A stretch of 64,000 nt of DNA, taken from Comamonadaceae bacterium. Its GTDB lineage: Bacteria > Pseudomonadota > Gammaproteobacteria > Burkholderiales > Burkholderiaceae_C. Positions 31,283 to 34,935 of the stretch are shown one piece after another. The notes beneath the pieces were generated by a model. The model saw only the letters and a program-made list of their open reading frames with translations, did no database searches and had not been told where the DNA came from. Position 1 is the first letter of the stretch. Every line of letters starts with the position of its first letter. The stretch covers positions 1 through 64,000 of the forward strand of contig CANFWH010000006.1 in the NCBI GenBank assembly GCA_947450645.1. The letters run 5' to 3'. Both the position numbers and the translations under genes were made by a program.

Positions 31283-31438
31283 ATGAAAAATGCGCTTTTA
31301 GGATGTTTGCTATTTCTCGGCGGCGTCGCCAGTGCTGCCGATTACACGGGTCCGATTTTTGACGCGCATCTTCACTTGCTCGAGCCTTGGAAGATGTGCG
31401 CCGAGTACTCGGATCTTCATTTTGCGATGCCTAACGTC
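31283..31438 (+). pseudogene. Truncated amidohydrolase gene, N-terminus only
   Basis: After AGGAG at 31271-31275, the ATG at 31283 opens a frame with a signal peptide (MKNALLGCLLFLGGVASAA) and the metal-binding start DYTGPIFDAHLHL, the HxH motif of amidohydrolases. The homology seems to end near residue 35 (position about 31390); the frame then runs through unrelated sequence to a TGA at 31436-31438 inside the attC site. The opposite strand just beyond the break reads MKIRVLGAH, which resembles the start of a metallo-hydrolase. So two gene starts appear fused head to head. Confidence 0.7.
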
Positions 31439-31488
31439 TGACTTAAGCGGCCTACCGTAGGCAGGTCCGCTTGAAGGAAGGGTTAGGC
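31429..31488 (-). mobile_element. attC: Integron attC recombination site (59-base element)
   Basis: Exactly 60 bp, read on the minus strand: R'' GCCTAAC, 5-base spacer, L'' CTTCAAGCGG, 16-base loop with its own CCTAC-G-GTAGG stem, L' CCGCTTAAG, 6-base spacer, R' GTTAGGC. L'' pairs with L' except for one extra C, the unpaired base that sets orientation in attC sites. That polarity places the cassette gene on the minus strand, and the upstream gene is indeed there, its TAA stop lying inside R''. Confidence 0.88.
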
Positions 31489-32245
31489 GGCTCGGGTCGC
31501 GACATAACATGCGGTGACAACCGCTCCCGCTATTGTTAGGCCAGCCCCGAAATGTGTGGTGTATCGGGCAAGGCGGAAACTAAAGATGCTGCACCAAGTG
31601 TCGTGCAAGCACTCATAGGCCATGAACTCGTCGGATCGTTCCATTTTCGTCTCTTCGCCGACCGCACCCTTTTTCCTTCTAGCGAAGGCAGTGCCTGCCG
31701 CGGCTCGAAACCTAGCCAACAGGATGAAGTTTCTACACAGTGGCAGATCAAAGAAGTCTTCGAGAACGGTTGGTAGTGCTATCCGAATTACGTGCGTCCC
31801 TACATCGAGTGGCACCTCAGGGTTGCACAGTGTGCCAATGTGAACTGAATCATCAAGGAGGCGTCGCTTCCCTGAGCGAAGCAGAAATGGCCAACGGCGC
31901 CAAGGGGTTTCTTGTCGAAGTATGTCTTTGTAGAGAATGTCAATGTTCAGTCTTACGCGCTCCAATAGATCGCGTTCCCAGACTGACCCCAGTGTTGAGA
32001 TGGCCGAACCGAATGTGGCGAAGATGGCACCAGTTGACAGAAGTGAGATCAAGTCCTTTTGAGCTTCGGGGAGCCGCAGAACCACGATTGCCGTAACGCT
32101 CGCGATTGTATATAGAGCGACCACCCCAAGTCTGTGGACGAAGAGTGAGTTGAATCTGCCGAAGCTTGATTCCGCCGCCGCGCGGTTCGATGATGGTTCG
32201 TCATGCATACTTTGTGCTGCGTTCGTAGTCTCTTTAGACGCCTAA
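31435..32245 (-). mobile_element. Single integron gene cassette
   Basis: About 811 bp bounded by two GTTAGGC core sites on the minus strand (32246-32240 and 31435-31429). It has the classic layout: short 5' leader of about 37 bp, one gene filling the element, then attC at its 3' end. No integron integrase gene is in the window, so this is either a lone cassette at a secondary site or the edge of an attC cluster without integrase. Confidence 0.75.
31483..32208 (-). CDS. Cassette-borne membrane protein of unknown function
   Basis: A 241-aa protein I do not recognise. Hydrophobic segments lie at about 27-45 (LGVVALYTIASVTAIVVL), 53-76 (LISLLSTGAIFATFGSAIS) and 218-238 (GAGLTIAGAVVTACYVAT). The middle 140 residues are soluble, with several Arg-rich and Asp-rich stretches. 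No catalytic motif is obvious. The TAA stop lies in the R'' core of the attC site. The start is the ATG at 32208; an overlapping ATG in another frame is 4 bases further on. Confidence 0.75.
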   Translation of the reverse strand: MHDEPSSNRAAAESSFGRFNSLFVHRLGVVALYTIASVTAIVVLRLPEAQKDLISLLSTGAIFATFGSAISTLGSVWERDLLERVRLNIDILYKDILRQETPWRRWPFLLRSGKRRLLDDSVHIGTLCNPEVPLDVGTHVIRIALPTVLEDFFDLPLCRNFILLARFRAAAGTAFARRKKGAVGEETKMERSDEFMAYECLHDTWCSIFSFRLARYTTHFGAGLTIAGAVVTACYVATRAA

Positions 32246-32302
32246 CTTGCAATATGCGGCAAAAATTTCGTATATTTAAATTGAATTTGTCGCATGTCGG
32301 TA
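32240..32302 (-). mobile_element. Cassette 5' boundary core site, possibly a decayed attC or attI
   Basis: The minus strand has GTTAGGC at 32246-32240, the expected cassette insertion core. Beyond it, ATGCGGCAAA and TTTGTCGCAT form an imperfect inverted repeat, and GTCGGTA (32296-32302) occupies the place of the opposite core. Spacers are asymmetric and the second core is poor, so it is at best a degenerate attC; an attI site is an alternative. Confidence 0.35.
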
Positions 32303-32370
32303 TTTCCTTTTTGACCTAAGTATTCAAATATTAATGCTTACAAAGTTTTAAGCAGACCATTCTAAAAATC

Positions 32371-32419: not shown

Positions 32420-33796
32420 TCATCTCATTATGGCTTCAATGGCGTCTGCATCCACTGGCACACCACGACTAAGTAACTCGCAGCCCGTGCTCGTCACCAG
32501 CGCATCATCCTCAATCCGAATACCAATGTTGTGATACCGCTCGGGCACGCCTGCCGCTGGTCTTACGTAGATGCCTGGCTCTAGGGTCAGCACCATGCCT
32601 TCTCGCAGAATTCGGCTGGGGCGCACCTGCACGGTTTGCTTGGTGACGGGGTCGATTTTTTCGGTGACGATGTGCGCCTCGGACGGCTCGATGTAGCTGC
32701 CGCAGTCGTGTACATCCATGCCCAACCAATGACTGGTGCGGTGCATATAAAACGGACTGTAGGCGCGCTGCTCGATCACGTCTTGCAGACTCCCCACTTT
32801 GTTTTTGTCCAGCAAACCCACGTCCAGCATGCCTTGCGAGAGGACGGCTAGTGCTGCATCGTGCGGATCGTTAAAGCGATTGCCGGGTTTGGTGGCAGCC
32901 GCTGCCGCCTCCTGGCTGGCTAGCACGATGTCGTACAGCTCGCGTTGTGCGGGGCTAAATTTTCCGTTTGCGGGGAAGGTGCGCGTGATGTCGGATGCGT
33001 AGCCATGCAACTCGCAGCCTGCGTCAATCAGCACCAAATCGCCATTCAAAATGGGCGCAGCGTCGGCGCGGTAATGCAGCACGCAAGCGTTTGCGCCGCC
33101 CGCCACGATGGAGCTGTACGCGGGGTATTCGGAGCCTTGCAAGCGGAACTCGTGCAATAGTTCGGCATCCAAATGGAATTCACGGGTATCCAAACCTTGG
33201 CGCAACCTCTGCGCAGAGAGCTTCATGGCACGGATATGCGCTCCTGCACTAATCTGCGCGGCGCGGCGCATGGTGGCGATTTCGGATGCGTCTTTGATGA
33301 GCCGCATTTCATCTAACAGCACGCATAGATCACGCTGCTCAGCCGGACAAGTGATGCCTTGGCGAGCCTTAGCCCGCACGGCTTCCAGCCAATGCGTGAT
33401 TTGACCATCTAAGCCGTGGTGCGTAGCAAAGGGGAAGTAAACCACGGACGTGTTTTCTAGCAAAACGGGTAGATGTGCATCTAACTCCGTGATTGCAAAA
33501 GCAGTCTGCAAGCCAAGCTGGGCGGGGGCTGCAGCAGGGCCAAGGCGGATGCCATCCCAAATTTCGCGTGCTTCGTCTTTGGGTTGGCAAAACAAAATCG
33601 AGTGACCATTGGCAAGCAAGACCAGCGTAGCGTTGGGTTCGGTAAAGCCCGTCAGGTAATGGAAATAGCTATCGAAGCGAAACAAAAAATCGCTATCGCG
33701 GTTGCGGCGCTGCTCGGGTGCGGTCGGGATGATGGCGATTCCGCCAGTGGCAAGTTGGGCGGCGAGGGCGGTGCGGCGTTTGGCGTAGATGTTCAT
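32420..33796 (-). CDS. pepP: Xaa-Pro aminopeptidase (aminopeptidase P)
   Basis: Removes N-terminal residues that precede proline; a dinuclear Mn metallopeptidase of family M24B. The 458-aa protein has the aminopeptidase P N-terminal domain (RRNRDSDFLFRFDSYFHYLTG) and the pita-bread domain with metal ligands in VLIDAGCELHGYASDITRTFP (Asp, Asp), HRTSHWLGMDVHD (His), LTLEPGIYV (Glu) and GIRIEDD (Glu). It starts at 33796 with a 4-bp ATGA overlap with the upstream MetE-like gene, so the two are coupled. Confidence 0.95.
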   Translation of the reverse strand: MNIYAKRRTALAAQLATGGIAIIPTAPEQRRNRDSDFLFRFDSYFHYLTGFTEPNATLVLLANGHSILFCQPKDEAREIWDGIRLGPAAAPAQLGLQTAFAITELDAHLPVLLENTSVVYFPFATHHGLDGQITHWLEAVRAKARQGITCPAEQRDLCVLLDEMRLIKDASEIATMRRAAQISAGAHIRAMKLSAQRLRQGLDTREFHLDAELLHEFRLQGSEYPAYSSIVAGGANACVLHYRADAAPILNGDLVLIDAGCELHGYASDITRTFPANGKFSPAQRELYDIVLASQEAAAAATKPGNRFNDPHDAALAVLSQGMLDVGLLDKNKVGSLQDVIEQRAYSPFYMHRTSHWLGMDVHDCGSYIEPSEAHIVTEKIDPVTKQTVQVRPSRILREGMVLTLEPGIYVRPAAGVPERYHNIGIRIEDDALVTSTGCELLSRGVPVDADAIEAIMR

Positions 33797-34935
33797 CCCC
33801 AAACTTTCTGCGCGACGTGGGCAATAAGCGCCAATTTTTTCCATTGATCGTCCATGGTGATGATGTTGCCTTCCACTGTACTTGCAAAGCCGCACTGCGG
33901 GCTAAGCGCTAAATTTTTAAGGGGCACAAATTTAGACGCGGCATCAATACGGCGTAGCAGATCATCTTGATTTTCGAGTTGACCTGATTTCGTTGTGACG
34001 AGTCCCAGCACCACACGCTGCCCATTGGGAATGTGGCGCAGTGGCTCAAAATCGCCCGAGCGCTCATCGTCGTACTCCAGCAGTAAATGATCGCACTTCA
34101 GACCGCCAAACACCGCTTCTGCAATGCGGGCATAGCCGCCTTCCGATATCCAACCACTGCGCGAATTGCCTCGGCAAACATGGATACCAATGGCGGTGTC
34201 ACTCCTTCGCTTGGCGATGCAGTCGTTGGTTAGTTGGATATAGCGTGCGAGGCGTGCGTCAGGGTCTTCGCCCGCAGCCGTGACCTCGGCGCGCAGGCGG
34301 TCGCTAATGAAGTAGGTCAGCAGCGGATCGTCGATTTGGATGTAGCGGCAGCCCGCCACTTCTAGCGCCGCAATCTCTTGTTGATACACGCGCACCACAT
34401 CGGCAAAGAAGTCTTCAATGTCGGGATAGGCGGCAAGCGATACCGCCGCTCTGCCACCATGAAAATGCAGCCGCGTGGGCGAGGGAATGGTGATCTTCGC
34501 CGTGCGTTTAGTTGTCGATTGCAAATAGGAAAAGTCAGCGGCATTGCTGCTGCTCTCAAGCGAAATGCGATCATGCACAAACACATTTTTAGGAACGTAT
34601 TCCCATGAGTGATCGTGCCCGCAGGCCACAGCCTGCTTGGCCTGCGCTAGTGCTGCATCACGTTCAAATCCAGCGCTTTTGCCGTCTTGAATCTCTACGC
34701 CACGCAGTGACCGCGCGAAATCAATCCACCAGTTTTCGCGTCTAAATTCGCCGTCTACGACAACTTGAAAACCAAGATCTTCTTGCCGCTTAGCAATTGC
34801 AGTAATTGCCGCATCTTCCGCTTGGTGAAGTTGAGTCGCCGTGATTTCGTGCCGTTCAAATTGAGTACGTGCATCCAGCAAACTCTCTGGGCGCAACAAA
34901 CTGCCCACTTGATCGGCACGAAAAAATGGTTTCAT
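33793..34935 (-). CDS. Core MetE-like cobalamin-independent methionine synthase II family protein
   Basis: A 380-aa protein matching the C-terminal catalytic barrel of MetE but lacking its N-terminal barrel. The start FRADQVGSLLRP is typical. Zinc ligands are visible as His and Cys in GIHVCRGN and Cys in SPQCGFAS; YIQIDDP is also conserved. Relatives are YxjG-type proteins and archaeal core MetE, which use other methyl donors or simpler folates. The substrate is uncertain. It lies 12 bp after the binding-protein gene and overlaps pepP. Confidence 0.85.
   Translation of the reverse strand: MKPFFRADQVGSLLRPESLLDARTQFERHEITATQLHQAEDAAITAIAKRQEDLGFQVVVDGEFRRENWWIDFARSLRGVEIQDGKSAGFERDAALAQAKQAVACGHDHSWEYVPKNVFVHDRISLESSSNAADFSYLQSTTKRTAKITIPSPTRLHFHGGRAAVSLAAYPDIEDFFADVVRVYQQEIAALEVAGCRYIQIDDPLLTYFISDRLRAEVTAAGEDPDARLARYIQLTNDCIAKRRSDTAIGIHVCRGNSRSGWISEGGYARIAEAVFGGLKCDHLLLEYDDERSGDFEPLRHIPNGQRVVLGLVTTKSGQLENQDDLLRRIDAASKFVPLKNLALSPQCGFASTVEGNIITMDDQWKKLALIAHVAQKVWG

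Follow-up and report, generated by a model that had tools for sequence, protein, structure and literature searches.

The feature described here is probably a single integron cassette that occupies an orphan attI, one of several such platforms dispersed in the genome, where it was recombined by an integrase that is encoded elsewhere or has since been lost. It lies within the 64,000-nucleotide stretch of DNA that was analysed (the window). Read along the minus strand, the order is pepP, attI, an 811-bp cassette with a gene for 241 amino acids, attC and a 52-bp stub; an amidohydrolase-like stub on the plus strand follows. The attI site occupies positions 32240–32312 (minus strand), and its 5' core site, GTTAGGC at 32240–32246 (minus strand), is both the place where homology with the congener begins and, by analogy, the place of the G|TT crossover. 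The integrated cassette (31435–32245, minus strand) extends between two such G|TT points, and its attC is found at 31429–31488 (minus strand). The first-pass annotation had read this region as a lone integron cassette with no integrase nearby, and the data presented below support that reading. In the proposed mechanism, the cassette would be acted on by an integron integrase whose gene lies at another place in the genome or is no longer present in the species, and its folded attC would have recombined with the attI of the window at G|TT. The genus as a whole would have several dispersed orphan attI platforms whose positions are shared and whose cassettes are species-specific.

The upstream neighbour of the attI is an ORF for pepP (Xaa-Pro aminopeptidase; 32420–33895, minus strand; Pfam Peptidase_M24 and AMP_N), which reads towards attI and is common to the congeners, with DNA identities of 84–87% to G001–G004 over the matched stretch. 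The cassette gene (31483–32208, minus strand) encodes a protein of 241 amino acids with hydrophobic stretches near both ends (by eye) and belongs to no known family. The protein has no match in Pfam, PADLOC, NCBIfam or PHROG, and beyond the window's own sequence no homologue was detected in plasmids, 199 genomes, or IMG/VR and GTDB contigs (both limited to close relatives); a single-sequence AlphaFold2 model has a mean pLDDT of 38.8 and was set aside. Past the attC, the 52-bp stub (31377–31428, minus strand) carries a truncated start resembling that of a cassette gene (ATG at 31420). It is absent from the congener G002 and, beyond the window's own copy, gives matches of 18–24 bases only among the relatives' loci compared. 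The adjoining 5' stub of a gene for an amidohydrolase-like secreted protein (named by eye; 31283–31376, plus strand) retains the first 31 codons here, and the gene is intact in G002 at 290 amino acids. Positions 31283–31428 hold a 31-codon amidohydrolase-like stub fused to 52 bp that resemble the start of a second cassette gene, and a deletion beside the attC is likely.

The genus set consists of five genomes, G000 (that of the window) to G004. The attC model found sites in four of these; tracing them, together with the matches of the attI profile, led to units of attI and cassette that lack intI. Sites resembling the attI of the window are termed type A, and sites with another motif type B. 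At the pepP locus, G002 has the same pepP–attI junction as the window (82% identity over 110 bp), followed by a different cassette with a 141-aa gene and an attC of 29.2 bits; the amidohydrolase-like gene past this cassette is intact. A comparison with relatives, as the first-pass annotation had proposed, thus yields a congener with the same junction and a different cassette. In G003 and G004, katG (by eye) is located between rubrerythrin and pepP, and the type-A profile matches no attI at the locus. The matches to pepP and to rubrerythrin in G001 each stop at a contig end. G002 also contains a second short match to the pepP 3' region (L038, 2877–2932) beside a cytosine methyltransferase-like gene (by eye), which suggests an insertion near the pepP locus in this genome. 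The genus looks like a member of Burkholderiales, a placement based on MaeB, for which replicons of Caballeronia and Paraburkholderia from the plasmid collection show 71% identity; JASGCK010000002.1 (L217), a contig of G002, was deposited as a Cytophagales MAG and is probably mislabelled.

The second shared locus is flanked by a GST gene (named by eye). Here G000, G002 and G003 have a type-B attI followed by three different cassettes, and homology resumes at a core after the cassette, which is GTTAACACGTCTCA in G000 and G002 and CGTAACACATCTCA in G003 (end set by eye). The attC model (R1) detects no attC for the G003 cassette at this locus. Neither attI nor cassette is present there in G001, and G004 diverges. 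The third, locus D, carries three different cassettes in G000, G001 and G003, with an attC that is weak in G001 (20.9 bits) and undetected by R1 in G000. Two further orphan sites occur in G002 (C14 and C19); in the other four genomes of the genus, the gene flanking the C19 position directly adjoins the next gene. The sites G003:C135 and G001:C192 are weaker, degenerate cases. In the former (L142), a degenerate type-B attI and a cassette-like gene are followed by a second, truncated attI-like copy (by eye). Elsewhere in G002 (L110, C17), two attC are located near a contig end, one of them preceded by a PIN toxin-like gene (by eye) that may belong to the main array.

Homology breaks at the core sites of all three shared loci (pepP, GST and D). 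Pairwise likeness is 0.65–0.93 over the 110 bp up to the core and 0.43–0.54 over the first 110 bp of the cassette, the former being the higher in seven of seven comparisons, which are not independent of one another. At locus D, likeness up to the core is only 65–71%. Shuffled sequences reach maxima of 0.48–0.52 for cassette likeness, and the pair from locus D of G000 and G001 exceeds its own (0.54 versus a shuffled maximum of 0.50). In a blastn comparison among eight cassettes, matches were found in attC regions only. Three of nine other cassette proteins scanned from platforms of the genus match defence models, namely G002-C19 (TIR-TM, 1e-59), G002-C14 (TIR effector, 6e-10) and G002-GST (Mrr_cat/PDC-M36A), and the remaining six match nothing at E ≤ 0.01. 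The TIR-TM-like, TIR-effector-like and Mrr-like proteins of these solo cassettes in G002 (L107, L109 and L111) are possible anti-phage cargo at orphan attI sites.

The first-pass annotation had seen no integrase in the 64 kb, and this absence extends to the whole assembly: a TIGR02249 search of G000 (2.47 Mb, 76 contigs, 94% complete) returned no integron integrase over the cut-off. Three matches in two places fall below the cut-off; such matches are also given by all 14 control genomes and presumably represent Xer recombinases. An integrase over the cut-off is present in 44 of 100 genomes (that of the window being counted among the hundred), including the congeners G001 and G002, and in G002 it is encoded on a contig other than that of the pepP site. 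G000, G003 (78% complete) and G004, all incomplete assemblies, yield none over the cut-off, and the cassette of the window may therefore be frozen. A tblastn search with seven IntI proteins (E ≤ 1e-3) detected no relic of intI at the window locus or at the loci of the other orphan sites in the genus.

Outside the genus the two attI types differ in distribution. In a search of 60 genomes, the type-A profile (R2, built with the site of the window included) gives matches confined to the genus with one marginal exception (G009, E 0.04). The type-B profile (R3), built solely from seven orphan sites, gives 58 matches at E ≤ 0.05, spread over 26 of 100 genomes; seven of these are the training sites. 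Examination covered 37 of the other 51 places, in 36 family loci, comprising all 28 with E < 0.001 and nine hand-picked from the 23 weaker ones. Four of the matches are located beside an intact intI, in G006, G007 and G038 (E < 0.001) and in G014 (E 0.01). A profile made from orphan sites thus recovers intI-linked attI and is independently validated, its reach being just four of the 44 genomes in which an integrase exceeds the cut-off. The other 33 matches are orphan. Nine of them lie downstream of a truncated intI (eight loci in other genera, as two matches share one relic), and for the remaining 24 no intI could be detected within the examined stretch.

An attC is found downstream of all four intact intI-linked matches and of 16 of the 33 orphan matches (two share one attC, three are at E 0.015–0.024, and one is cut by a contig end). 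The 17 orphan matches outside the genus with no detectable attC downstream include some near contig ends. Every attC found (37 of 37, 22 of them in loci without an intact intI) is on the same strand as an attI and downstream of it; since the examined stretches are mostly longer downstream than upstream, strand is the fairer control. Two orphan sites have several attC downstream, four at G045 (C2) and three at G050. Four loci of G045 (L176, L184, L185 and L188) have in common a unit of 256–285 bp, consisting of an intI N-terminal relic and attI, that is 85–92% identical among them. Alignment of the left ends of these units for the boundary of a mobile unit shows that they differ by ~30 bp, with no core site visible. 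The occurrence of this unit at four loci makes it possible that copies were made of truncated platforms.

Recombination in trans is argued chiefly from the pepP locus (G000 and G002) and the GST locus (G000, G002 and G003), where the integrase-less junction is itself common to the species. Because this junction is shared, intI was probably absent before the cassettes changed. As judged from these alignments, the change of cassettes at both loci probably followed the loss of the integrase, and such a change would imply recombination in trans. The argument applies equally to insertion and to differential excision. A frozen remnant, in which a local integron gained the cassette in cis and was later stripped of intI and its other cassettes with no recombination in trans, is an unlikely alternative, although there are points in its favour: at the eight loci in other genera an orphan attI is preceded by an intI relic, G000 has no integrase over the cut-off, and CALINs are viewed as degraded integrons in PMC9024848. 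It would require repeated losses of intI at one and the same junction, given that the congeners share the intI-less junction at pepP and GST and differ in their cassettes, and the sites of the genus show no relic at the tblastn threshold given above.

We assign a similarly low probability to differential loss, by which several cassettes were present at the ancestral site and all but one, not the same one in each species, were removed by attC × attC excision or RecA-dependent deletion. This process predicts the same core-precise breakpoints, and the orphan sites of G045 (C2) and G050 that retain four and three attC are consistent with it. However, long ancestral arrays would be needed at three loci, each of them cut to one different cassette per species, and excision mediated by an integrase would itself act in trans. 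Docking in an orphan attI by an integrase that acts from elsewhere in the genome, or that the species has since lost, is preferred, and the platforms may be active at present or may have been so in the past.

The identity of the docking site is supported by comparison with intact integrons of the genus. The attI of the window matches the attI beside the intact intI of G001 in blastn (75% over 56 bp, E 2e-6) and more weakly the intI-linked attI of G002 (71% over 55 bp, E 0.007). Two other relatives that bear intI, G010 and G029, have integron loci with no match to it. On the basis of this homology the far boundary of the cassette is an attI site, and the divergent intI of a complete integron is lacking at the locus and, over the cut-off, in the assembly. 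When four attI sites of the genus are aligned, which is possible without gaps, 33 of 73 columns are invariant. The motif TATGCGAC occurs in G001 and in the pepP site of G002 as two copies 22 bp apart followed by an inverted copy, the second copy being ~28 bp away from the core. The attI of the window has the same arrangement (two direct copies 22 bp apart, one inverted, and 28 bp from the second copy to the G of the core) with partly degenerate repeats. In a scan for this layout, with a chance rate of 0.8 per Mb, the copies in G001 and the pepP site of G002 score, and two degenerate sites, the window attI and the attI linked to intI in G002, fall below the threshold. The intI-linked attI of L051 and L053 show the same repeat layout with another motif (spacing of 22 and 23). 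A promoter scan, using the consensus only, gave no minus-strand match for Pc.

The first-pass annotation had offered two origins for the cassette, insertion at a secondary site or survival from an attC cluster. Insertion in a secondary chromosomal site of the attG type, merely containing GTT, is very improbable. Such insertions are known (Loot et al. 2024, as cited in PMC12444791 and PMC12901181), older plasmid cases are cited and attI-like sites are described as frequent across genomes in the relevant part of PMC10127599. However, the target in the window can be aligned over its length with attI sites from intact integrons of congeners, carries a leader ORF like theirs and is attI-like, whereas attG sites are described in the available text of PMC12444791 as neither attC nor attI. 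The idea of an attC-cluster remnant comes closer and is incomplete, in that the attI platform is preserved and the same locus in a congener holds another cassette.

The attI of the window contains a leader ORF of 17 codons, MRQIQFKYTKFLPHIAS (32242–32295, minus strand), which is preceded by a Shine-Dalgarno-like AAAGGA and has its stop, TAG, inside the core site. With the same requirements applied to the sites and to the background (ATG, 15–21 codons without a stop, and a Shine-Dalgarno sequence), a leader is present at 13 of 15 attI-like sites (14 from the genus and one from G006) and at two of 169 background GTTA[GT] sites; one of the two remaining attI-like sites has the frame only, and the other has none. 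Type-A leaders have 17 codons and occur at six of seven sites, the site without one being G001-C192. Type-B leaders of the genus have 19–20 codons and also occur at six of seven sites, the frame at locus D of G000 having no Shine-Dalgarno match. The intI-linked attI of G006 has a leader as well. In ten of the 13 the stop is a TAG within the core GTTAG; the other three (G000-GST, G001-D and G003-C135) have an altered core, through which the frame continues. Such leaders are not general, as 20 other intI loci provide two candidates (GTG or TTG start), the core not being located in three of the 20.

Divergence at the first, second and third codon positions of the leader is 0.32, 0.36 and 0.26 in type A (n = 6) and 0.36, 0.39 and 0.32 in type B (n = 16 hand-chosen sites). 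That the three positions diverge equally suggests that being translated, rather than the peptide, is what matters, and the peptide is under no visible selection. Transcripts entering attI would be translated from the leader, terminating in the core, and ribosomes could then re-initiate on the cassette gene in the manner of ORF-11 in attI1. ORF-11 is likewise a short ORF with a Shine-Dalgarno sequence within attI and a TAG stop in the GTTRRRY core, the sequence of its peptide being described in the relevant part of PMC8876359 as barely important. The leaders described here differ in having 17–20 codons and in occurring in two attI sequence types; by analogy, they may couple translation in the same way.

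The attC itself has the complete architecture that the first-pass annotation had outlined. The cores GTTAGGC and GCCTAAC are present at 31429–31435, 31482–31488 and 32240–32246; the hairpin consists of R'' (GCCTAAC), L'' and L' arms with one extrahelical base, and R' (GTTAGGC); and the cassette gene faces the attC with its stop, TAA at 31483–31485, inside R''. The extrahelical base is at position 3 of L'', a placement shared by most of the attC-like sites that the same arm-matching scan found in relatives. The proposed covariance check was made with our own model (R1), derived from 24 attC of relatives with the site of the window left out, and not with IntegronFinder itself. The site scores 77.8 bits (E 1e-17), and at E ≤ 1 there is no second match in the 64-kb window. 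The attC strand folds with –15.3 kcal/mol (z –4.5), a value equalled by none of 200 shuffles. A site that combines perfect R and L arms with a single extrahelical base occurs once in the window and not at all in 40 first-order Markov windows of 64 kb. The heptamer GTTAGGC alone is at chance frequency (five seen, 5.4 expected), and a mismatch-tolerant scan for attC-like patterns, which expects ~19 per Mb in shuffled sequence, gives one further match in the window, a poor one at 1055–1129. A scan on energy alone was too noisy and was replaced by the arm-matching scan and the covariance model.

In the first sample of relatives, the closest attC belongs to a G045 array, with 93% identity over 58 bp; the remaining attC of that sample are 74–90% identical over most of the site, and several are within cassette arrays. 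An origin of the hairpin and the boundary in some unrelated family of repeats, rather than in an integron, can be dismissed, as the independent covariance score refutes it, similar attC sit in the cassette arrays of relatives, and an Rfam search returned no match at the attC or the boundary.

More broadly, a distributed integron in many Burkholderiales genomes, made up of several solitary attI platforms that are scattered over the chromosome, each have their own leader and usually one or a few cassettes, and are served in trans by an integrase from another locus, with cassettes (some of them defence-like) swapped at fixed expression sites instead of in one array, has in our view about an even chance of being correct. 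The usual view of an attI is that it is paired with an intI next to it. If orphan attI work as docking platforms, cassettes outside arrays would not be products of decay or chance insertion alone, integrase-less cassette clusters at conserved loci would have a mechanism, and several cassettes at once would obtain the position that is expressed first. No description of orphan or dispersed attI platforms was found in a literature search in which few subscription papers were represented. According to the accessible part of PMC9024848, detection of attI by IntegronFinder 2.0 is confined to class 1, so such sites could be overlooked. The dispersed integrase-less platforms, with putative activity, are therefore best regarded as a novel form of the integron and CALIN organisation.

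Several known systems resemble this arrangement in part. A sedentary chromosomal integron has the same attI, attC, cassette orientation and G|TT geometry; here, in contrast, no intI is present at the locus (and none over the cut-off in the assembly), and one cassette takes the place of an array. Insertions at attG or other secondary sites likewise put a cassette outside the intI-linked array, and attI-like secondary sites are reported to be frequent (PMC10127599, in part), whereas the target here aligns over its length with the intI-linked attI of the genus. In Xanthomonas, CALINs are found away from intI at conserved loci in several species, are said to be mobilizable in trans and are contrasted with scattered attG insertion (PMC12444791); they differ in that the available text of that source reports no attI at those loci. 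In current terms, a single attC lacking an integron-integrase is a SALIN (as defined in the accessible part of PMC12690207), and with our covariance model the feature of the window is of this class; it has one attC, and a CALIN has at least two clustered attC without intI. SALINs and CALINs share with it an attC-bearing cassette with no integrase nearby. Unlike these, the feature described here keeps an attI with a leader ORF, and it belongs to a set of several platforms per genome at shared positions, whose cassettes differ by species.
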